Source of the DNA: Lujinxingiaceae bacterium
GTDB taxonomy: Bacteria > Myxococcota_A > Bradymonadia > Bradymonadales > Bradymonadaceae
Direction: 5' to 3'
Assembly (NCBI GenBank): GCA_013697635.1
Contig: JACCWM010000036.1
Coordinates: forward strand, 62,001-126,000
Length of the DNA stretch: 64,000 bases
In this document: piece by piece, positions 4,637 through 64,000 of the stretch
Position numbering within the stretch: position 1 is the stretch's first letter
Layout of the letters: every line of letters starts with the position of its first letter
Translations under genes and position numbers: made by a program
The notes under the pieces: model-generated
Databases searched by the model: none
What the model was told of the DNA's origin: nothing
The model's input: the letters and a program-made list of their open reading frames with translations, nothing else

Positions 4637-5119
4637 TCAGGCTGGCGTGTCTTTTTTGAGCTCGCCCGATGCCGGCGCGGTGATCGGCACCGGCTCGAGC
4701 TGCTGGAGCTCAATCTCCAACACGCGCGCGAACTCGTAAATTCGCTCGTCGCGATAGAACTCGCCAAAGATAATGCGCTGGATGCCGGCGTTGGCAATCA
4801 TCTTGAAACACGGCCAGCATGGCGACGCCGTCACATAAATGCTCGCGCCCTCGATCGCCACGCCATTTTTTGCGGCCTGGATGATCGCGTTGCACTCGGC
4901 GTGGATCGTGCGAACGCAGTGGCCGGCCTCCATCATGTGGCCGACCTCGTCGCAGTGGCCCAGGCCGCGCACGCTGCCGTTGTAGCCCGTTGACAAGATC
5001 GTGCGATCGCGCACGATCACGGCCCCGACATGCTTGCGATCGCAGGTCGCCCGCGTGGCCACCTGCGTGGCGATCGCCATGAAGTAATCGTCCCAACTCT
5101 TTCTGGCATCGTCGCTCAT
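4637..5119 (-). CDS. dCMP deaminase family protein
   Basis: 160 residues, full length for the zinc deoxycytidylate deaminase family, which makes dUMP from dCMP for thymidylate synthesis. Zinc and catalytic motifs are visible: HAE (H73, E75) and PCWPC with C101 and C104. The start ATG at 5119 has AAGGGATC just upstream. Extra Cys/His residues (C66-type HCDEVGHMMEAGHC) match the dCMP deaminase / ComEB subgroup rather than cytidine deaminases. It stands as a single gene; the next gene downstream is tRNA-Phe with its own promoter. Confidence 0.9.
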   Translation of the reverse strand: MSDDARKSWDDYFMAIATQVATRATCDRKHVGAVIVRDRTILSTGYNGSVRGLGHCDEVGHMMEAGHCVRTIHAECNAIIQAAKNGVAIEGASIYVTASPCWPCFKMIANAGIQRIIFGEFYRDERIYEFARVLEIELQQLEPVPITAPASGELKKDTPA

Positions 5120-5128
5120 GATCCCTTC

Positions 5129-5156
5129 TACTCCCAGCGTGCTACTCCCAGCGTGT
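5129..5156. repeat. 14-bp perfect tandem duplication
   Basis: CTACTCCCAGCGTG occurs twice back to back in the gap upstream of the dCMP deaminase start. On the minus strand it places repeated GGGAGTAG segments in the 5' leader, partly next to the ribosome site. Confidence 0.9.
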
Positions 5157-5188
5157 GCGTGGCCGTCTTCGGCCCCAAAACGCCACTC

Positions 5189-5821
5189 TTACAACACTTG
5201 GTGTAGCATGCGAAGCGTCTGCGCGTGCTGCGGGCTCAATATCCTTGGCACGCTCGCCAGTACCAGGCCCAAATGCTCGCCGACGTCGAACTGCTCCATC
5301 GAAGCGCAGGCGCCGACCAGCGCGCAGATCTGTTCGATCGCTGCCGGACGCCCCGCGCGGTGCCAGGCATGCACCATGCCCAGATGATATGCCTGGCTGC
5401 TCGCCATGATCCCGGCCTCACTGAGCGCCTCGCGCCACTCCAGCGAGCTTATCGAGGCCATGCGCACTGGCACGCGCTCGAACAGCTCTCGCCACTGGCC
5501 TGCGAGCGACACGGGGGCAGCACTTGCACCGGCCTCGCCCACCAGTTGCATGTGCACAACTGGCTGCTCGCCGTGCTTGCCCATGGCGATCATGGCCATG
5601 CTCACCCCGTCGTCACTCATGATGCGTAACAATTGCGTGCGCTGGGTGAGCGCATCGACCACCACGCGCTGAGCATCGAAGGGGCGCCACTGATCGCGCG
5701 CATTCATGTCGTAGCGGTGCGCCCTGAAGCCGGCGACGGCACAGACCTCCTCGAGCAGCGGGCCAACGACCTGCTCGCGATCAAGCACGCGGTGCTCCAA
5801 CTGCCACATCATTTCGAGCAT
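5189..5821 (-). CDS. Hypothetical protein
   Basis: 210 residues if started at 5821, where AAGGAG lies six bases upstream. The frame is open back to 5977, but that would overlap the divergent pncB start and has no ribosome site. The product is soluble, mostly helical, Met-rich at the N-terminus (MLEMMWQLEHRVLD) and has no signal peptide or membrane segment. No family was recognised. It is transcribed divergently from pncB-pncA with about 150 bases between starts, so the two units may share a control region. Confidence 0.65.
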   Translation of the reverse strand: MLEMMWQLEHRVLDREQVVGPLLEEVCAVAGFRAHRYDMNARDQWRPFDAQRVVVDALTQRTQLLRIMSDDGVSMAMIAMGKHGEQPVVHMQLVGEAGASAAPVSLAGQWRELFERVPVRMASISSLEWREALSEAGIMASSQAYHLGMVHAWHRAGRPAAIEQICALVGACASMEQFDVGEHLGLVLASVPRILSPQHAQTLRMLHQVL

Positions 5822-5975
5822 GTACCACTCCTTGAAACGACCCTGATCCGCCGCAAACATTGATCTTGAAAGGCTCACGTGGGGTGCTATGTTCGTCCGG
5901 TCCATCTGGAGGCTTGAAAACGCGCCCATTTCCCAATGGCCCACACCACCACATCTTCGCAATGGTGAACTGACC

Positions 5976-7412
5976 ATGGCTTCGACTTCTGCCTCGCTGA
6001 TCGAACACGTCTCGCTTTACACCGACCTCTACGAGCTGACCATGGCTCAGGGCTATTTCTTGGCGGGAAAGGCCTCTCAGCAAGCCTGCTTCGACTACTT
6101 CTTTCGCTCCAATCCTTTTGAGGGCGGCTACGTGGTCTTTGCCGGAATGCGGGACTTCTTGGAGCTTTTGGAGACGCTTCGATTCGGCGCGATAGAGCGC
6201 GATTACCTTCGCAGTCTGGGCTTTGACGAGCGCTTCTTGGCCTATCTGGCCGACTTTCGCTTTCGCGGCGAGATCTGGGCGCCGGCCGAAGGCGAGGTGG
6301 TCTTTCCCTATGCACCGGTGATCCGGGTGCGCGGCGGCCTGCTCGAGACACAGATCGTCGAGACCCTGCTGCTCAACGTCGTCAACTTCTCCTCGCTCAT
6401 TGCCACCAAGGCCTCGCGCATCCGCCGCGTTGCCGGCGAGCGCATGCTGATCGAATTCGGCCTGCGCCGCGCTCAGGGTCTGGGCGGTCTGCATGCCAGT
6501 CGCGCGGCCACCATCGGCGGCTTTGATGCCACCTCCAACGTGCTGGCCGGCTACCACTTTGATCTGGAGGTCGCCGGCACACAGGCCCACTCCTGGATTC
6601 AAAGCTTCGACGACGAACTCACGGCTTTTCGCGCCTACGCCGAGCATTATCCCGACAAGTGCCTGCTGCTCGTCGACACGTATGACACGCTGCGCTCTGG
6701 CGTGCCGCACGCGATCACGGTGGCCAAAGAACTCGAGGCTAAAAACAAGCGCTTGCTCGGCATCCGCCTCGACAGCGGCGATCTGGCCTACCTGGCCAAA
6801 AAGGCCCGCCAGATGCTCGACGAGGCCGGCCTTGACTATGTCAAGATCGCCGCCTCCAACCAGCTCGACGAGCACGTCATCAAGAGCCTGCTCGTCGACC
6901 AGGGCGCGCCCATCGATATCTTCGGAGTCGGCACCCAGCTTGTGACCGCCTACGACGACGCTGCACTCGGCGGCGTCTACAAGCTCAGCGAGGTCGACTC
7001 CTCGCCGCGCATCAAGATCTCGGAGAATTATCAAAAGGTTAACTTCCCCGCCATCAAACAGGTGCTGCGCCTGATCGACGACGACGGCCTCTTCTACGCC
7101 GATGCCGTCGTCGAGCACGAGCAGACGAGTGTTGGCCGGATGTTGCATCCCTTCGACCCACGAAAGAGCGTGGACGTCTCACGCTTTGCCACCGAAGCCC
7201 TGCTCAGCCCCTGGGTCCAAGACGGCGAGCAGGTGCGTGAGCTTGTCAGCGCGCATCAAAGCCGCGCCTTTTCGGCCAGCCGGCTTGCCCTCCTGCCCGA
7301 TGAGCACAAGCGCTTCGAAAACCCCCACATCTACAAGGTAGGACTGAGCGAGGAGCTCTACACGCTGCGCGAGCAGGTCTTGGAGCGCGCCCGACAGGAG
7401 ATCAAATCATGA
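5976..7412 (+). CDS. pncB: Nicotinate phosphoribosyltransferase
   Basis: 478 residues. It makes nicotinate mononucleotide from nicotinate and PRPP in the Preiss-Handler NAD salvage route. Family features include the N-terminal TDLYELTMAQGYF motif, the central EFGLRRAQG stretch, the catalytic-region histidine in AGTQAHSWI, and RLDSGDL and FGVGTQLVT near the phosphate-binding part. The start at 5976 is chosen because the conserved N-terminus begins about 15 residues later and GGTGAA lies upstream; the longer frame to 5889 lacks support. Its stop overlaps the ATG of pncA by four bases, so the pair is translationally coupled and converts nicotinamide to NaMN. Confidence 0.95.
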   Translation: MASTSASLIEHVSLYTDLYELTMAQGYFLAGKASQQACFDYFFRSNPFEGGYVVFAGMRDFLELLETLRFGAIERDYLRSLGFDERFLAYLADFRFRGEIWAPAEGEVVFPYAPVIRVRGGLLETQIVETLLLNVVNFSSLIATKASRIRRVAGERMLIEFGLRRAQGLGGLHASRAATIGGFDATSNVLAGYHFDLEVAGTQAHSWIQSFDDELTAFRAYAEHYPDKCLLLVDTYDTLRSGVPHAITVAKELEAKNKRLLGIRLDSGDLAYLAKKARQMLDEAGLDYVKIAASNQLDEHVIKSLLVDQGAPIDIFGVGTQLVTAYDDAALGGVYKLSEVDSSPRIKISENYQKVNFPAIKQVLRLIDDDGLFYADAVVEHEQTSVGRMLHPFDPRKSVDVSRFATEALLSPWVQDGEQVRELVSAHQSRAFSASRLALLPDEHKRFENPHIYKVGLSEELYTLREQVLERARQEIKS

Positions 7413-7954
7413 AAGCACTGCTGGTCGTCGACGTACAAAACGATTTTACACCCGGAGGCGCGCTTCCAGCCGAACAAGGCCACGCCGTCATCTCAGTGAT
7501 CAACGCGCTCATGGCCCAATTCCCACTGGTCGTGGCCTCGCGCGACTGGCACCCCCAGGACACCGTGCACTTTGAGCGCTGGCCGGTGCACTGCGTCAAG
7601 TTCTCAGCCGGCGCCGAGTACGACCCCCTGCTCGACAAGGAGAAGATTGACCAGGAGTTTCTCAAAGGCACGGATCCGGAAACAGATTCGGGCTACTCGG
7701 CGTTTGAAGCTACGAGCGAGGATCTCGACAAGTATCTTCGTGAGCACGACGTCGACGAACTCTACGTGGTCGGCTTGACCACCGAGTACTGCGTCAAGGC
7801 CACCGTGCTCGACGCGGTCAACCTGGGCTATAAGACCTTTGTCGTCACCGATGCCGTCGCCGCGGTCAATATGCTCGACGCGGCCGCCGCGCTCGAGGAC
7901 ATGCGCCGCCACAATGCCAGCCTCGTGGGCTCCCAGGCTGTGCTCGCCCAGTAA
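7409..7954 (+). CDS. pncA: Nicotinamidase
   Basis: 181-residue isochorismatase-fold amidase that hydrolyses nicotinamide to nicotinate. The catalytic triad is present: D8 (VVDVQNDF), K86 (FLKGTDP) and C128 (TEYCVK). Metal ligands correspond to D46 and H48 (SRDWHP) and H61 (PVHC). Length is normal for PncA. It overlaps pncB by ATGA and is followed 38 bases later by the phoB-like gene, which may read through from the same transcript. Confidence 0.95.
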   Translation: MKALLVVDVQNDFTPGGALPAEQGHAVISVINALMAQFPLVVASRDWHPQDTVHFERWPVHCVKFSAGAEYDPLLDKEKIDQEFLKGTDPETDSGYSAFEATSEDLDKYLREHDVDELYVVGLTTEYCVKATVLDAVNLGYKTFVVTDAVAAVNMLDAAAALEDMRRHNASLVGSQAVLAQ

Positions 7955-7992
7955 AGCCTGTTGCCGTCTTTTGCGAGAAGCGCGCCGCACAA

Positions 7993-8700
7993 ATGTCCAT
8001 CCTCATCCTCATCGTCGAAGACGAACAAGACCTCGCCCGCACGCTGAAATACAACCTCGAGCGTGAGGGCTATGCGACGCGCTGCGCGCTGACCGCCAGC
8101 GATGCGCTCTTGTTCGCCCGCCAGGAGCCGCTGCCCGACCTGGTCCTGCTCGATTTGATGTTGCCCGACATGTCCGGCACCGAGGTATGCCGCCGACTTC
8201 GCCAAGACGAGCTCACCCAGCACGTCCCGGTGATCATCCTCACCGCCAAGGGTGAGGAGATCGACCGTGTCGTCGGCTTCGAGGTCGGCGCTGACGACTA
8301 TGTCGTCAAGCCCTTCAGCGTGCGCGAGTTGATGCTTCGTGTGCGGGCCATCTTGCGCCGCGCTCAACCCGAAGAGGCCGCACTACCCAAAGACAGTGAC
8401 GTCGTCTTTGGCCGCCTTCGCCTCGACGTACCCGGATACCGCGTCTGGGTCGATGAGCAAGCCGTCCACCTGACCGCGCTCGAGTTCAAGCTCTTGACCA
8501 CGCTCTACCAACGCAAGGGGCGCGTTCAAAGCCGCGAGGCTTTGCTCAGCGACGTCTGGGACATCACCGCCGACGTCATGACGCGCACGGTCGACACCCA
8601 CATCAAGCGACTTCGCGAGAAGCTCGGCGCAGCCGGCGACTACATCGAAACCCTGCGAGGCGTCGGCTATTGCTTTCTGGCCGCCCCTGCCAACGAGTAG
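7993..8700 (+). CDS. phoB: PhoB-type response regulator
   Basis: 235 residues. The receiver domain (1-120) has phospho-acceptor D54 in LVLLDLMLP and the conserved Lys in YVVKPFS. An OmpR/PhoB winged-helix DNA-binding domain follows (about 130-232, with SREALLSDVW and RTVDTHIKRLREKLG). It is followed 11 bases later by a PhoR-like kinase gene, so it is the usual phosphate two-component pair. No pst transporter or phoU gene is in the window, so phosphate control is inferred from family and pairing. Confidence 0.88.
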   Translation: MSILILIVEDEQDLARTLKYNLEREGYATRCALTASDALLFARQEPLPDLVLLDLMLPDMSGTEVCRRLRQDELTQHVPVIILTAKGEEIDRVVGFEVGADDYVVKPFSVRELMLRVRAILRRAQPEEAALPKDSDVVFGRLRLDVPGYRVWVDEQAVHLTALEFKLLTTLYQRKGRVQSREALLSDVWDITADVMTRTVDTHIKRLREKLGAAGDYIETLRGVGYCFLAAPANE

Positions 8701-8710
8701 TCCAACCGGC

Positions 8711-10480
8711 GTGACACTTTCCTTTCGCAGCAAACTCTTTTTGATCGCGGTCAGCCTGCTGATGACCTTTGCGATCGCCAGTGGCCTGTATCTCGAGCGC
8801 GAGCTTCGAAACTGGTTCGAGAGCCGCATTGAGACCGAGCTGCAGGCCCATGCCCAGACCGCGCGCGAAGCCGTCACGGCTCTGCCCGCAGACGCTTCGC
8901 CCGAGGCGATCGCCTCGTTGGCCGAGCGCCTGGGAACGGCGACCGCTACGCGCGTGACCTTGATCGGCGCCGACGGGCGCGTGCTCGGAGACTCCCATCT
9001 ACCTGGCGACGCCCTGCACTCGGCCGAGAACCACGCCGCGCGCCCCGAGATCGCCGCAGCCCAGACCCAGACCTTTGGCTCGGCGCGCCGGCTCAGCCGC
9101 ACGGTCGGCAAACACATGTTCTATGTCGCCGTGCCCTACACCCGCGACGACGTGCGTGGTGTCGTGCGCGTCGGCCTGCCGCTCGACGACATCGACGAGG
9201 TCATCGCCCACCTGCGCCTTTTCATGGTCTTCGCGATCTTGTTCGGCCTGGTCGCGGCCATGTTCTTAAGCGGTGTGGCCTCCCATTTGATGGCGCGCAC
9301 GCTTCGCGAGCTGGTGCAGCACGCCCGCACGGTCACCCTGCGCCCGTCGCCCCTGGCCAGCGATGAGCCCGCCGCCGGCCTGGCCAACTCGATGCTCACC
9401 CTTCGCGAGGAGCTCGGCCAGACGCTTGCGACCATGGCCAGCGAGCGTGATCGCTTCGAGGCCGTGCTCGACGGTATGGGCGAGGCGGTGATCGCCGTCA
9501 GCCCCGATCGACGCATGACGTTGGTCAATCGCGCCGCGCGCGCGCTCTTTGGGCTCTCGACGCCCCCTGTTGGGCGCAAGCTCGACGAGATCCCTGATCT
9601 GGCGATGCTCGACGATCTCGTCGTTCGCACCGAACACGAGCAGTCCGCGAGCGCCGAGTTCGACTTGGCCGGCCCCGTCGTGCGCAAGGTCATGGCTCGG
9701 GCCACGGTCAAGCGCGCCAGCGGCGGCACGATCATCGTCATCCACGACGTCACCGAGCTTCGCCGCCTCGAGACGATCCGACGCGACTTCATCGCCAACG
9801 TCTCCCACGAGCTTCGAACCCCCGTGAGCGTCGTGCAGGCCAACGCCGAGACCCTGCTCGACGGCGCGCTCGAGGATGGCGAGATGGCCCGCGCCTTTGT
9901 CGAGGCAATCCACCGCAACTCCGAGCGTCTCTCGCGTCTGATCGCCGATCTCTTGGACATCTCTCGGCTCGAGGCCGACAAATACGAGATCGAGCTTCAA
10001 CCCGTCGCGCTGGCCGTCGCCGTCCACCGCGCGATCGATGCCGTCGAAGGCAAAATCGACCGCGCCCTGACGGCCATTGACCTGGCCATCGATGATCAGC
10101 TCGTCGTCTGGGCCGATCCCAAGGCGATCGATCAGGTGCTGTTCAATCTGCTCGACAACGCCTTCAAGCACATGCCCGACGGCGGCCGCGTCAAAGTCGT
10201 GGCCGAGCTTGGCGCCGACGAGGTGCGCATCGAAATTCGCGATGATGGCCCGGGCATCGATTTCAAGCACCGCGATCGCATCTTCGAGCGCTTCTATCGC
10301 GTCGACAAGGGCCGCGCGAGCCACATGGGCGGCACCGGCCTGGGCCTCTCCATCGTAAAACATCTGGTCAGCACCATGGGCGGCAACGTAGGCTTTCGCC
10401 CGAACTCGCCACGCGGCTCGATCTTCTGGTTCACCCTTTGTCGCGAGCAGCCCGACACCGACGCCGCTGCCCGACCCTAA
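8711..10480 (+). CDS. phoR: PhoR-type sensor histidine kinase
   Basis: 589 residues with a GTG start at 8711 right after phoB. Membrane segments lie at about 10-27 and 168-189 with a periplasmic sensor region between them. A HAMP-like stretch is followed by a PAS domain (about 245-350). The HisKA box is HELRTP with H366, and the ATPase has an N-box (NLLDNAFKH), G1 (DDGPGI) and G2 (GGTGLGLSI). The product would autophosphorylate and phosphorylate the adjacent PhoB-like regulator. The large periplasmic loop is longer than in E. coli PhoR and resembles the Gram-positive/delta-type PhoR. Confidence 0.88.
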   Translation: MTLSFRSKLFLIAVSLLMTFAIASGLYLERELRNWFESRIETELQAHAQTAREAVTALPADASPEAIASLAERLGTATATRVTLIGADGRVLGDSHLPGDALHSAENHAARPEIAAAQTQTFGSARRLSRTVGKHMFYVAVPYTRDDVRGVVRVGLPLDDIDEVIAHLRLFMVFAILFGLVAAMFLSGVASHLMARTLRELVQHARTVTLRPSPLASDEPAAGLANSMLTLREELGQTLATMASERDRFEAVLDGMGEAVIAVSPDRRMTLVNRAARALFGLSTPPVGRKLDEIPDLAMLDDLVVRTEHEQSASAEFDLAGPVVRKVMARATVKRASGGTIIVIHDVTELRRLETIRRDFIANVSHELRTPVSVVQANAETLLDGALEDGEMARAFVEAIHRNSERLSRLIADLLDISRLEADKYEIELQPVALAVAVHRAIDAVEGKIDRALTAIDLAIDDQLVVWADPKAIDQVLFNLLDNAFKHMPDGGRVKVVAELGADEVRIEIRDDGPGIDFKHRDRIFERFYRVDKGRASHMGGTGLGLSIVKHLVSTMGGNVGFRPNSPRGSIFWFTLCREQPDTDAAARP

Positions 10481-59014: not shown

Positions 59015-59080
59015 TTCTGATACGACCGTCCTTCTCATCGCTCGACGACCCAATAACGCGCACCATCAATGGAGGCACCC

Positions 59081-59716
59081 ATGGCACTGCAACTTGGCGA
59101 TATTGCACCCAATTTCACAGCTCAAACCACCCACGGACCGATCAATTTCCATGAGTGGGCTGACGACTCCTGGGTCATCTTCTTCTCCCATCCAGCGGAC
59201 TTTACGCCGGTATGCACCACAGAGCTTGGCACAGTGGCGCGCCTGCAGGGCGAGTTTCTGGAGCGTAACGTCAAGACGATCGCGCTCTCGGTTGATTCGC
59301 TCGAGTCCCACGAAGCCTGGATCAAGGACATCAACGAGACCCAGGACACCATCGTCAACTTCCCGATCGTCGCCGACGCGTCGCGCGAGGTGGCGCACAG
59401 CTACGGCATGATCCATCCCAACGCCGACAACACCATGACGGTGCGCTCGGTGTTCGTGATCGATCCCAGTCGCAAGATTCGCCTCACGCTGACCTATCCG
59501 GCGGCGACGGGTCGAAACTTCGTCGAGTTGTTGCGCGTCATCGACGCCCTTCAGCTCACCGACGGCTACAGCGTGGCCACGCCGGCCAATTGGAAGGTCG
59601 GCGAGGACGTGATCATCGTACCCTCGCTCAAGGATCCGGAGGTGCTCAAGGTGAAGTTTCCGGCCGGCTACACCGAGATCAAGCCCTATCTGCGCCTGAC
59701 CCCCTACCCCAGATAA
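59081..59716 (+). CDS. 1-Cys (Prx6-type) peroxiredoxin
   Basis: 211 residues from the ATG at 59081 (GGAGG five bases upstream; ATG 59069 lies before the conserved start). The peroxidatic Cys is C45 in PVCTTE, and no other Cys occurs, so it is a 1-Cys enzyme. PGDFTP-like HPADFTPVC and the Prx6-type C-terminal extension (PTPANWKVGEDVIIVPS-like segment) are present. It reduces peroxides and needs an external thiol. The strong hairpin behind it lies inside the convergent kinase gene. Confidence 0.93.
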   Translation: MALQLGDIAPNFTAQTTHGPINFHEWADDSWVIFFSHPADFTPVCTTELGTVARLQGEFLERNVKTIALSVDSLESHEAWIKDINETQDTIVNFPIVADASREVAHSYGMIHPNADNTMTVRSVFVIDPSRKIRLTLTYPAATGRNFVELLRVIDALQLTDGYSVATPANWKVGEDVIIVPSLKDPEVLKVKFPAGYTEIKPYLRLTPYPR

Positions 59717-59719
59717 GAG

Positions 59720-61666
59720 CTAAGCGCCTGGGCCTGGCGCGGCGCTGTCTCCGCGCCAGGCCCAGGCGATCAGCGCGAGCGCGATGAAATTGCTTGCGCC
59801 GTCGATCTCGAGCACCAGCTCAGGAAAGAGCGCGATGCCGAAGGTTCCCAGCAAAAATCCGCCTGCAGCCGGCCACAGCCTGTGGTCGACGAGATTGGCG
59901 AGCATCATGATCGAGAAGGCCAGCAAACCGTTTTCGAGCGCTGTGCAACCGCCGACATCGAGCCCCAATGCAAAGCCGACAAGGCGCATGATCAAGATCC
60001 CCGCGAGGATCACGAACAGCGAGGTGACGATGCGCGTGTTGATCGCGTTCTTGAACAACTTTTTGCGCATCACGATGACGACCAGCGTCGAGAGCGTCAA
60101 GATCGCGGCGAACTGCACGAAGTAGTTTTGAAACGAGAACTCGCTCAGAGCGTTTCGCACCAGGACGCTGTTGATCATCGGCGCTCCGCCAAACAACAGG
60201 GCCAGACACATCATCATCACGCTTCGGTCCTTGCCGCCCAGGCCCAGATCGACGTCGTGGCTGATGCGTTTGAGCTCGTCGAGCGCGCGCTCCTTTGCCC
60301 CGAGCGCCTCGCGCAGCATGGCGAGGCGCTCGAGCAGCGCGCTTGACGGCGCGCTCAAGGCGTCGATCAACAAGGTGGCGGCCTTCTCGTCTCCCATGCG
60401 CAGCTCGAAGTCGGCCATAACCTCGAGCGCCGCTTGCCTGCCGATGCGCGCATCTTCGTTGCCCGGCCAGATGTTGAGCGCCTGATCGAAGCCAAAGCGA
60501 CACTCCGTGAACAGCTCGTAGAGCGAGCCGGGCGCTTCCTGCTCGATCGCCACGCCATCGCCTGGCCCACAGTCGACAAAGAAGTCGGCGATCTGGGCTC
60601 TCAAGGCGTTCAGACGCCTCGCGCTCTCGTCGCTGAGCTTGCGGCTGACGCGGTTGCGCAAATGCTCGACCAGGGCCAGGCGAAAATCCTCGGCGCTGGC
60701 AAAGCGGTCTTCACGATTGTGACTGGTAGCCCGGTTGCAGATCGCGGCCAGATCGCGCGGTACGTCTTCGTCGTAGGCCACCGGATCGGAGCGAAAGGCA
60801 TTGATCAGCATGGCCATCACCGACGCGCCTTGATGGCGCGGCGTACCGGTGACGAGCTCGTGGAGCACCGCACCGAGCAGGTAGACGTCGGTGCGCTCAT
60901 CGAGCTGCTCGCCATGCCCTGCGGACATCTCCGGGGCGATGTAGGCCGGCGTGCCGGCGACGTCTTTGACGTCTTTTGCCAGCGGAAGCCGGCCCTTGCC
61001 ATCGTCGATCAAACTCGCTGCCAGGCCCCAGTCGAGCAGGTACACCTCGCCAAAAGCGCCGAGCATGACGTTGTCGGGCTTCAAATCACGGTGAATGATC
61101 CCCTTGCTGTGCGCAAAATGCACGGCGTTGCAGACCTGGATCAAGATATCGAGGTGGGCCTCGAGCAAGTCTTCGCTGACCCGAAACTTGGCCGGCAAAA
61201 GCTCGGGCTTATTCAAAGCCTCGGCCCAACTGACGCCCTCGACCTTCTTCATGACGAGCATCGGCGCGCCGATCTCGTCGAGACCCAGGGCATGGATCGG
61301 GATGATGTTGGGGTGCTCAAGGCGCCCGGCAATCCAGGCCTCGCGCAAGAGGTCGTCGGCGGCCCCCTCGTTGGCTCCAACGCGAACGGTCTTGATCGCC
61401 ACATCGCGGTAGAGCGAGGTTTGCTCGGCCAGGCGCACGATCCCCATGCCACCCTCGCCAATCGTGCGCGTGACACGGTACTCGGCCAGCTCGCTCAGAT
61501 CGCCAAATGCGGCCAGGCGCGGCAGCTTGCTCACCGTCAGATTGTGATGCAGACGAGGGCCCTCGATCGTGTCGCTGCTCGCGCCCACGCGCATCGTCTG
61601 GCTGTCGAGGGCGAGCGTCTTCCAAAATGCGATCAAGTTTTCGTCGGGTTGTACAGGCGTCTTCAT
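59720..61666 (-). CDS. Membrane Ser/Thr protein kinase, tandem paralog 1
   Basis: 648 residues from the ATG at 61666, which overlaps the upstream kinase stop by ATGA. Hanks-type kinase domain: glycine loop GEGGMGIVRLA, Lys K92 (VAIKTV), HRDLKPDN with D194, DWG at D212 in place of DFG, and the APEMS site. A helical middle (about 330-480) follows, then a membrane C-terminus with about five segments. The last codons also encode the peroxiredoxin terminator. It is likely a membrane-bound sensor kinase. Confidence 0.92.
   Translation of the reverse strand: MKTPVQPDENLIAFWKTLALDSQTMRVGASSDTIEGPRLHHNLTVSKLPRLAAFGDLSELAEYRVTRTIGEGGMGIVRLAEQTSLYRDVAIKTVRVGANEGAADDLLREAWIAGRLEHPNIIPIHALGLDEIGAPMLVMKKVEGVSWAEALNKPELLPAKFRVSEDLLEAHLDILIQVCNAVHFAHSKGIIHRDLKPDNVMLGAFGEVYLLDWGLAASLIDDGKGRLPLAKDVKDVAGTPAYIAPEMSAGHGEQLDERTDVYLLGAVLHELVTGTPRHQGASVMAMLINAFRSDPVAYDEDVPRDLAAICNRATSHNREDRFASAEDFRLALVEHLRNRVSRKLSDESARRLNALRAQIADFFVDCGPGDGVAIEQEAPGSLYELFTECRFGFDQALNIWPGNEDARIGRQAALEVMADFELRMGDEKAATLLIDALSAPSSALLERLAMLREALGAKERALDELKRISHDVDLGLGGKDRSVMMMCLALLFGGAPMINSVLVRNALSEFSFQNYFVQFAAILTLSTLVVIVMRKKLFKNAINTRIVTSLFVILAGILIMRLVGFALGLDVGGCTALENGLLAFSIMMLANLVDHRLWPAAGGFLLGTFGIALFPELVLEIDGASNFIALALIAWAWRGDSAAPGPGA
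59725..59768 (+). terminator. Terminator hairpin of the peroxiredoxin gene
   Basis: Perfect 18-bp stem CGCCTGGGCCTGGCGCGG / CCGCGCCAGGCCCAGGCG with an 8-base loop, starting nine bases after the peroxiredoxin stop. It lies within the last codons of the convergent kinase gene. No T-run follows, so it may act by pausing or on the mRNA end. Confidence 0.6.
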
Positions 61667-63609
61667 CTTTGCTTTGAGTCCTCTGTTTGTTTCCAGGCGC
61701 GCGCGATCAGCAAAAGCGCTGCAAAATTGCTCAATCCGTCGAACTCGAGCACCAGCGACGGCACGAAGGCCGCGCCAAAGGCGCCCACCAGAAAAGCGAG
61801 CGCCGCCGGCCAAAGCCTTGCATCGGTGAGCAGCGCCAGCATCAAGATGCCAAAGGCGAACAATCCATTCTCGAGCGCCGTGCAACCGGCCACGTCAAGC
61901 CCCAGCACAAAACCCAACAGGCGCATGACCAGGGCTCCGGCCAACATGGCGAACACCGAGGCGATTAGTCGCTTGTTGATTGCGTTTTTAAGCAACTTGT
62001 GGCGCATCACATAGACGACGAGCGCGGCGCCCGCCGAGATCGCGGCAAACTGCACGAAGTAGTTTTGAAACGAGTACTCGCTCGCGCCCAGTCGCACCAG
62101 CGCGCTGTTAAGCAAGGGCGCGCCGCCGAAGACCACGGCGAGGCGCGCGATCATCACGCTTCGCTCCCCGGTCGCGAGTTCGAGATCGACGTCGTGGCCG
62201 ATGCGCTTGAAGCGGTCGATCTGCTGGGCCTCGCGGCCGAGCGCCTCGCGCAATGCCGCCAGACGTTGCTCGAATTCATGATTGCGTTGCTTCAACTCGG
62301 CCAGCAGATTGGCGGCGGCCTTCTCGTCGCCCACGTGCAACTCGAAGTCGATCATGACCTCGAGCACGTCTTGAACGCCGCTCTTGGCGTCATCATTGTC
62401 GGCCCAGAGCATCAGGGCCTGCTCGAAGCCAAAGCGGCACTGGGCAAAGAGCTTATAAATCAGCGTTGGCGGCTGGCGCTGGGTGCGCGGGCCGGCGGCG
62501 TCGTGGGGCTGGGCCAAGAATTCGGCGATAAAGGATCGCAGCGTCGCCAACTGGCGTCCTGCCGACTCGGTGAGCCGGTGGCTGTCACGGTGCTCGACGT
62601 AATCCTCGACGGCGACGCGAAACGCCTCGGCGCTCTCATAGCGCCCTGCGCGCTCGCGGTCGGTCGCCTTGTTGCAGATCAAGGCAAGCTCGCCCGGCAC
62701 GAAGTCGGGATAATCGACCGCTTTGGAGTCGTAGGCGTTGATCAGGGTAGCCATCAAAGATTCACCGCCGTGGCGAGGTTGCCCGGTGACGAGCCGGTGC
62801 AAGATCGCGCCGAGCAGGTAGACGTCGGTGCGCGCCTCGATCGCCTGACCATGGGCGCCGGCCATCTCCGGGGCGATGTAGGCCGCAGTGCCGGCCACGT
62901 CCTTGATGTCCTTGGCCAGCGGCAAGCGAGCGCTTCCGTCGTCGATCACGCTGACCGCCAGGCCCCAGTCGACCAGGTACACCTCGCCAAAGGCGCCGAG
63001 CATGACGTTGTCGGGCTTCAAGTCGCGGTGCACGATGCCCATCGTGTGGGCAAAGTGCACCGCGTTACACACCTGCATCAAAATTTTGAGATGGGCCGTG
63101 AGCGGATCGCGCTCGCTTCGAAGGCGTGCCGGCATCTTGGCCGGATCGTGCAGCGCCTCGGCCCAGTTGACGCCCTCGACCATCTTCATCACGAGCATGG
63201 GCAAGCCGTGCTCGTCCTGGCCCAAGGCGTGTACCGGGATGATGTTGGGGTGCTCGAGACGCCCGGTGATCCAGGCCTCGCGCAACAAGTCGAGCGTGGC
63301 GCCCTCGTAGTGTTGATCCGTTCGCAGAGTCTTGATCGCCACGTTGCGAAACAGGGAGGTCTGCTCGGCCAGCCGAATCACACCCATGCCGCCCTGGCCG
63401 AGCGTGCGCGCGACGCGGTACTCGCCCGGGGCGCCCACCGCGTCGAGCGCCGCAAGCCTTGGCAGCGAGGCGATCGAGAAGGCCTCGGGCAGTCCGACGA
63501 CCAGCGGCTCGAGGGTGTCCGCAGATACAAGGCGCATCGTCTGATTGTCCTCGGCCAGCCCGTTCCAGGCGGCGAGTAGATGATCGTCAGGATGCGAGGC
63601 TGAACTCAT
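61663..63609 (-). CDS. Membrane Ser/Thr protein kinase, tandem paralog 2
   Basis: 648 residues, the same length as paralog 1. Kinase motifs match: GQGGMGVIRLA, Lys K93 (VAIKTL), HRDLKPDN with D196, DWG at D214, and APEMA. The C-terminal half has the same helical and multi-membrane layout (HKLLKNAINKRLIASVFAM). The ATG at 63609 has GAGAGAAG upstream. The two kinases overlap by four bases and are probably cotranscribed and cotranslated. Confidence 0.93.
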   Translation of the reverse strand: MSSASHPDDHLLAAWNGLAEDNQTMRLVSADTLEPLVVGLPEAFSIASLPRLAALDAVGAPGEYRVARTLGQGGMGVIRLAEQTSLFRNVAIKTLRTDQHYEGATLDLLREAWITGRLEHPNIIPVHALGQDEHGLPMLVMKMVEGVNWAEALHDPAKMPARLRSERDPLTAHLKILMQVCNAVHFAHTMGIVHRDLKPDNVMLGAFGEVYLVDWGLAVSVIDDGSARLPLAKDIKDVAGTAAYIAPEMAGAHGQAIEARTDVYLLGAILHRLVTGQPRHGGESLMATLINAYDSKAVDYPDFVPGELALICNKATDRERAGRYESAEAFRVAVEDYVEHRDSHRLTESAGRQLATLRSFIAEFLAQPHDAAGPRTQRQPPTLIYKLFAQCRFGFEQALMLWADNDDAKSGVQDVLEVMIDFELHVGDEKAAANLLAELKQRNHEFEQRLAALREALGREAQQIDRFKRIGHDVDLELATGERSVMIARLAVVFGGAPLLNSALVRLGASEYSFQNYFVQFAAISAGAALVVYVMRHKLLKNAINKRLIASVFAMLAGALVMRLLGFVLGLDVAGCTALENGLFAFGILMLALLTDARLWPAALAFLVGAFGAAFVPSLVLEFDGLSNFAALLLIARAWKQTEDSKQR

Positions 63610-63657
63610 GACTTCTCTCGCAAAGATGATTCGAGGCGTTCGCCTTCAGTGCTGGCA

Positions 63658-64000
63658 CTAACCTACGTGAGTTGAGTACGGATCTCCAGTCTGCGTCGCT
63701 TGGGAGCTCTTGCGGCTGTCGGAATACCAGACCAGCGCACAGAACCACATCGAGAGCAGATTGCCCACGCCGCTGATCTCAAACGCCAGAGAGGGAAAAT
63801 ACGCCGCGCCGATGCCGCCGAGCAAGAAGCCGCCCACGGCCCCGATCAAGCGCCGGTCGATAAAGGTCGCAGCGAGCGCCGCGACCGTGGCGAACAAGAC
63901 GCCCTCCATGGCGACAACGCTGACGATCGGCAAATCGAGTTTGAGCCCGAGCACGCGCATGGCCAGGTTGGCCACCAGCCCGACCATGATCGAGGTGACG
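63658..64000 (-). CDS. Third tandem kinase-like gene, C-terminal part only
   Basis: Open frame of about 114 codons that runs off the window, ending at 63658. The visible part is the membrane C-terminus and matches the end of the two kinases upstream in order (RVLGLKLDLPIV, RRLIGAVGGFLLGGIGAAYFPSLAFEISGVGN). The kinase domain would lie beyond 64000. Its presence shows at least three kinase paralogs in a row. Confidence 0.85.
   Translation of the reverse strand, partial: VTSIMVGLVANLAMRVLGLKLDLPIVSVVAMEGVLFATVAALAATFIDRRLIGAVGGFLLGGIGAAYFPSLAFEISGVGNLLSMWFCALVWYSDSRKSSQATQTGDPYSTHVG

Follow-up and report, generated by a model that had tools for sequence, protein, structure and literature searches.

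The organization of the kinase array

Three genes encoding Ser/Thr kinases lie next to one another at one end of the DNA analysed here. The question raised by this locus is whether they constitute a distinct signalling unit, in which the kinases sense different signals or phosphorylate each other, as was suggested in an earlier note made from the sequence, or whether they are simply the outcome of gene duplication. The DNA, from a bacterium related to the predatory Bradymonadales, is a stretch of 64,000 nucleotides, termed the window below (G000:C15:62001-126000), within an assembly of 6.2 Mb in 213 contigs. The positions of the genes are collected in Table 1.

Table 1. Positions of the kinase genes and of the genes that flank them. 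Numbering is that of the window unless a locus is named.
Feature	Position	Strand	Description
K1, complete in the assembly	L001 9584-7659; window-scale 65583-63658	(-)	641 aa
K1, C-terminal part in the window	63658-64000	(-)	cut by the window edge; start at window-scale 65583
K2	63609-61663	(-)	648 aa; architecture as K3
K3	61666-59720	(-)	648 aa; Pfam kinase domain aa 63-287, catalytic domain to ~335, helical linker ~336-470, six membrane helices ~478-638
1-Cys-type peroxiredoxin (AhpC-TSA and 1-cysPrx_C)	59069-59716	(+)	convergent; ends 3 bases from the K3 stop
Double AAA+ ATPase with winged-helix domain	L001:9688-12066	(+)	past the end of the window; transcribed away from K1, the starts being 103 bases apart

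All three kinase genes are intact and run head to tail on the minus strand, in the transcription order K1, K2, K3. K1 is located upstream of K2 with a gap of 48 bases, and the 3′ end of K2 shares the sequence ATGA with the start of K3, an overlap of 4 bases. From this spacing the three genes are probably co-transcribed; a promoter scan found no promoter-like site above chance on the kinase strand. An independent search of the genome with PF00069 places kinase domains at C15:122803, 124758 and 126612. The earlier note had described two kinases of equal length with a four-base overlap, and a third with a matching C-terminus. The assembly beyond position 64,000 bears this out, and K1 is complete there, intact and related to the other two. 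The array is uneven: K1 is clearly farther from K2 and K3 than those two are from each other.

There is no sign that the peroxiredoxin gene belongs to the array. Beyond it, downstream of K3, lies a PAS/histidine-kinase/receiver hybrid. A Pfam scan of nine neighbours found no phosphatase or other obvious partner gene. When the neighbours of the array were compared by blastp with 20 other stretches, no shared neighbour genes were found, save for histidine-kinase-like matches, probably generic ones, in L048 and L054. An all-against-all comparison of neighbours gave no conserved partner, although this is a weak test since the largest groups were antisense frames of the kinase genes; the other groups looked at came from close relatives or were generic regulators.

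The kinase domains and the DWG motif

K1, K2 and K3 all belong to the Hanks-type kinases, matching PF00069 over most of the domain with 116.5-122.3 bits (~E 1e-34) against the Pfam cut-off of 31.7. The only other Pfam matches above the cut-offs, to the related PK_Tyr_Ser-Thr family and a marginal one to APH, both fall on the kinase domain. The Gly loop, the VAIK Lys, the αC Glu, the HRD Asp, the Asn, the D-x-G Asp, the APE Glu and the F-helix Asp are present in all three proteins. Judged by sequence, these are catalytically intact Ser/Thr kinases with no sign of being pseudokinases. A pseudogene or an inactive kinase was rejected for K1 on its sequence, the reading frame being intact and the catalytic residues all kept, and the concern that the third gene might be unrelated or the kinases inactive is not borne out at the sequence level.

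The conservation of these residues was followed in an alignment of 52 proteins, comprising K3, K2 and those 50 of 67 relatives that have a Gly loop, a start and a length of 520-720 aa (17 were dropped). The catalytic Lys, the αC Glu, the HRD Asp, the Asn, the DxG Asp and Gly, the APE Glu, the F-helix Asp and a late Arg are found in 52 of 52, and the HRD Arg in 47. The invariance of the Gly loop is partly built in, as this was a selection criterion for 50 of the 52. A Ser or Thr lies 4-9 residues before the P+1 Thr in 30 members, and phosphorylation of the activation loop is possible in many of the family. K2 and K3 have no Ser or Thr in this interval, nor at the PknB-like positions of activation-loop phosphorylation.

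The DFG motif is replaced by DWG in each of the three kinases, as the earlier note had observed for the two that it could see. The same replacement occurs in 65 of 67 named family loci, the remaining two being fragments that lack this part, and the Trp is present in all 52 aligned proteins. As far as the sequences go, DWG is a hallmark of the whole kinase family and not a peculiarity of the array. It is uncommon among the kinases of this genome. Taking every third by rank gave a sample of 40 of its 118 kinase matches, and the 34 that were readable comprise 31 with DFG, 2 with DWG (one of them K2) and 1 with DMG. The longer signature GEVxxxDWG occurs at six places in this genome, i.e. in the three array genes, in one other family member (C63), and at G000:C81:35467-35492 and G000:C207:19786-19811. 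These last two are kinases that were missed by the search for the C-terminal half of the family, and DWG therefore reaches beyond this architecture. The exact signature is found in 48 of 57 genomes, this one counted. The idea that DWG might be a trait of the kinases of Planctomycetota was dropped, as the one kinase checked, from Aquisphaera, reads DFG.

According to two papers on CK2α, the Trp of its DWG motif has a larger number of contacts than the Phe usually found there, and a DFG-out conformation has never been seen (PMC5374413, PMC9608649). The second (PMC9608649) terms the motif 'unique' in CK2α. A literature search combining the DWG motif with DFG and bacterial kinases found nothing, and one on polytopic Ser/Thr kinases found nothing judged relevant; neither is proof of absence from print.

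The structure of the C-terminal half

Beyond the kinase domain there is no consistent Pfam family. Among 50 members scanned TPR_19 is the commonest match, with just two occurrences, and TPR_14 occurs once. Each of the three array proteins contains a helical segment and, from hydropathy, a hydrophobic C-terminal part, in keeping with the helical middle regions and several membrane segments that had been noticed earlier; the number of six membrane helices derives from models of K3. These were made with AlphaFold2, using alignments of the window proteins and the named relatives, and have a pLDDT of 95.6 for the C-terminal half and 91.6 for the full-length protein. In the model a helix of 42 residues (325-366) comes after the kinase; next are a bundle of TPR-like helices and a helix of 30 residues (442-471), and last the six membrane helices (478-638), which are joined by loops of 1-8 residues.

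The termini of K3 should lie on the same side of the membrane because the number of helices is six. The loop between membrane helices 2 and 3 (K3 ~533-545, read from the sequence) is rich in Arg and Lys. By the positive-inside rule positively charged loops are cytosolic, which suggests that the kinase domain faces the cytosol. With the kinase so placed, the predicted architecture of K3 has no room for an extracytoplasmic sensor domain.

The fold of the C-terminal half has no close counterpart among the structures searched. In VIA-align comparisons residues 1-82 of the model align with TPR proteins with Z ~6-7, a level that is also reached by unrelated helical repeats. A Foldseek search with the six-helix bundle gave no match below E 0.001, the best being E 0.88. 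Two candidate folds for the bundle from VIA-align, TMEM45A (Z 11.6, 5% identity) and SatP-type proteins (Z ~8.9), were rejected as lying within the stated noise for helical bundles. A PDB profile search weakly matched phosphatidylserine synthase 1 at E 7e-4, but only over hydrophobic helices, and this match was taken as chance.

The distribution of the kinase family

When the C-terminal half was used as the query, the family was found in 47 of 95 genomes at levels from genus to phylum, this genome counted. With a stricter cut-off, 18 of 21 genomes in the taxonomic family have it, as do 21 of 26 in the order. A collection from different species provided the 67 named loci, mostly labelled Myxococcota or Myxococcales. 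The combination of kinase, TPR-like linker and six membrane helices is a Myxococcota-wide architecture that is uncurated.

The tandem arrangement is confined to the present genome among those compared. The array genes are its sole strong members of the C-terminal family (E 1e-138 to 8e-147); there are two other, weaker full-length members (~E 1e-36 to 1e-38) and one fragment. No two family matches lie within 5 kb of each other in any of the 46 other genomes with matches, where the closest pair (G004) is ~7.6 kb apart and on opposite strands. Likewise no tandem pair of separate family genes occurs at the 67 named loci, each taken with up to 6 kb of flank. Single-contig genomes have either scattered copies (G005, G007 and G010) or one each (G013, G016 and G018). 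Drafts such as G008 and G011 have family kinases at contig ends, and broken arrays are possible there.

Several individual loci have features of their own. L119, labelled uncultured Myxococcaceae, is the only one of the 67 with a second member, in a tail-to-tail pair with overlapping frames (4819-6807 (+) and 6782-9172 (-)). L051 (G008:C177, 484-3609) has a family kinase directly downstream of a DFG-type kinase, on the same strand and 15 bases apart. In the genome of the array, L049 (G000:C141:17000-23006) contains a family kinase remnant where a contig ends (~5467-5846 (-)); this matches aa 39-85 of K1 and then, after ~45 bases, aa 577-645 of K3, as if the middle had been deleted. L065 (CAMDBH010000013.1), titled as a Klebsiella pneumoniae MAG, encodes a typical family kinase with 29% identity to the C-terminal half of K3, and the bin is probably mislabelled or mixed. 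L102 (JACPHN010000018.1) and L103 (JACPHN010000257.1) encode DWG family kinases; the record label is Candidatus Schekmanbacteria, outside the Myxococcota by title.

The duplications that generated the array

K3 has an overall identity of 60% with K2 and 47% with K1. Divided into kinase, linker and membrane parts, the identities are 68.7, 43.7 and 65.9% for K3 and K2, 63.1, 36.1 and 34.1% for K3 and K1, and 62.2, 40.2 and 31.2% for K2 and K1. The membrane half of K1 thus appears to have diverged about twice as much as its kinase half, while the kinase heads have been held alike.

In a tree of 41 proteins K2 and K3 are sisters (support 100/99) inside a clade of orthologues from relatives. K1 pairs with a sequence from G011 (97/90), outside the K2/K3 clade. 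On this phylogeny K1 is the older paralogue, and K2 and K3 are the result of a recent local duplication. A single triplication was rejected: of 200 bootstrap trees 0% group the array as one clade, whether full-length proteins or the membrane half are used. With the kinase half only, K1 has no well-supported position (10%).

Gene conversion was suspected because the kinase half of K1 is nearer to those of K2 and K3 than its membrane half suggests. Recent conversion of the kinase halves is not supported, since the silent sites have no near-identical tract in any pair. Overall silent-site identity among K1-K3 is 56-60%, against 39-45% expected from composition, and an old conversion between the kinase halves is possible.

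Among the 118 kinase matches of this genome there are 12 same-strand neighbouring pairs whose starts lie no more than 4 kb apart. The array accounts for two of these pairs, and some of the 12 are perhaps two matches in one reading frame. In the available text of PMC11032199, citing Perez et al. 2008, tandem duplications of kinases are already described for myxobacteria. The array is a lineage-specific tandem expansion, and as such an ordinary, expected result of kinase duplication in this group.

Discussion

The reading that we favour, and hold to be reasonably probable, is that the array grew by tandem duplication within its lineage, in two events, and that its genes, probably co-transcribed, encode active Hanks-type kinases that sense within the membrane and are probably kept in a CK2α-like active shape ('DFG-in'). 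By analogy with CK2α, the Trp that replaces the Phe of DFG would hold the active site in the 'in' state, and control would not operate by flipping of the DFG motif. The CK2-like 'always active' interpretation may be wrong, however, because 30 of the 52 aligned members have a Ser or Thr before the P+1 Thr. The six-helix bundle may sense the state of the lipid, a hydrophobic ligand or a partner within the membrane. A signal would then pass from the helix at ~442-471 through the TPR-like bundle to the helix at 325-366, and alter dimerisation or access of the substrate. A sensing role is putative, since the bundle has no reliable fold match and could be a mere anchor. The notion that the kinases sense different signals is plausible for K1 relative to K2 and K3, given the divergence of its membrane half. 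K2 and K3 probably respond to one cue, or to similar ones, at two settings, and K1 probably to another. The substrates of all three would overlap because the kinase halves are alike.

Alternatively K2 and K3 could be redundant or dosage copies, interchangeable and without separate signals, with the bundle acting only as an anchor. The two membrane halves share 66% identity, a level similar to that of the kinase halves, and this genome seems rich in kinase duplications, with its 118 matches and 12 same-strand neighbouring pairs. Yet the two proteins are only 60% identical overall and 44% in the linker, so both copies have been long retained with every catalytic residue kept, and a mere anchor would not need a six-helix design that is conserved across the phylum. 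We regard redundancy as unlikely.

The three kinases might instead form a cascade or hetero-oligomer in which they phosphorylate each other, and so be a distinct signalling unit. K1-K3 are adjacent and probably co-expressed, with similar kinase halves, and cross-phosphorylation between Hanks kinases is reported for Bacillus subtilis (PMC4166321) and Mycobacterium tuberculosis (PMC6213207). Against this, the three occur together in no other genome examined. The nearest relatives have one or scattered copies, so that each kinase presumably functions by itself; the surroundings revealed neither a phosphatase gene nor a conserved partner. K2 and K3 moreover have no Ser or Thr at the PknB-like activation-loop positions. 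With single or scattered copies in relatives, neighbours that are not conserved and a phylogeny indicating a lineage-specific pile-up, the proposal of a distinct signalling unit is not supported, and we consider a cascade doubtful.

A more far-reaching idea, which we put forward as no better than a speculative and rather improbable one, is that the whole family corresponds to CK2 in its regulation, as a bacterial equivalent: DWG would lock the kinases in the active state, and the six-helix sensor, acting through a TPR-like lever, would be their only gate. The array would then be a multi-input gate, in which diverged sensors are attached to near-identical heads with shared substrates.

Finally, a role in defence against phages, as kinases of the PD-T4-6 or MADS type, seems very remote. 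PADLOC PD-T4-6 models do match the array kinases (E down to 4e-61), but the listed matches coincide with the generic kinase domain or its surroundings, most Hanks kinases would be expected to match these models, and no curated cut-off is given. With the NCBIfam MAD6 model the scores are 102-117, where the cut-off is 460, and no defence genes are evident among the nine Pfam-scanned neighbours.

On the favoured reading, of a tandem expansion of active kinases, the most notable trait is the fixed DWG in combination with a putative sensor half that is purely membrane-embedded. Tandem duplication of kinases is already known in this group, while a Trp at this position of the active site is rarely discussed. 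A widespread, uncurated Myxococcota kinase architecture with a fixed DWG offers an independent test of whether the Trp there enforces constitutive activity. In the array itself, nature provides similar catalytic heads joined to dissimilar membrane sensors, a set suited to domain swaps.

Comparison with known systems

The Ser/Thr kinases of myxobacteria and Planctomycetota, as described in the available text of PMC11032199, have undergone species-specific duplications, with some of the copies adjacent, and most are membrane-bound. The combination of a kinase, a TPR-like region and six helices with an invariant DWG is not mentioned in that text.

The PknB/Stk1 branch resembles the array kinases in the kinase domain, and the best solved relatives of the latter are chains of PknB (E 1.5e-38). 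The array kinases differ in having no PASTA (by Pfam) or other extracytoplasmic domain, and in having DWG, not DFG. They score 174.9-184.7 bits with the PASTA-kinase model NF033483, against a cut-off of 450 and over the kinase domain only, and so lie outside that family. PknB has a single membrane helix, compared with six C-terminal helices in the array kinases.

CK2 is a soluble enzyme. CK2α shares the DWG motif with the array kinases, and in the excerpts of PMC5374413 and PMC9608649 the motif is tied to a fixed active conformation. CK2 is a eukaryotic kinase of the CMGC group, according to an excerpt of PMC8041304. No CK2 chain is found among the 21 solved sequences below E 1e-20, all of which are PknB, PknE, PknA, StkP or kinases with unspecific names. 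The resemblance to CK2α, as it appears from these comparisons, is convergent and not one of membership.

In SaeS, BceS and DesK, which sense within the membrane or sense its state, the membrane helices are N-terminal to the catalytic domain. The sensor of these proteins is essentially the membrane segment, linked by a helix to the cytosolic catalytic part, and in this the array kinases would be like them. The full-length model of K3 has the marks of such intramembrane sensing, with very short loops and no extracytoplasmic sensor domain. SaeS, BceS and DesK are histidine kinases, however, and have fewer membrane helices than the six of the array kinases, DesK having five in the text available from PMC8301901. 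In the array kinases the Ser/Thr kinase domain comes first and the six helices last, the reverse of the order in SaeS, BceS and DesK.
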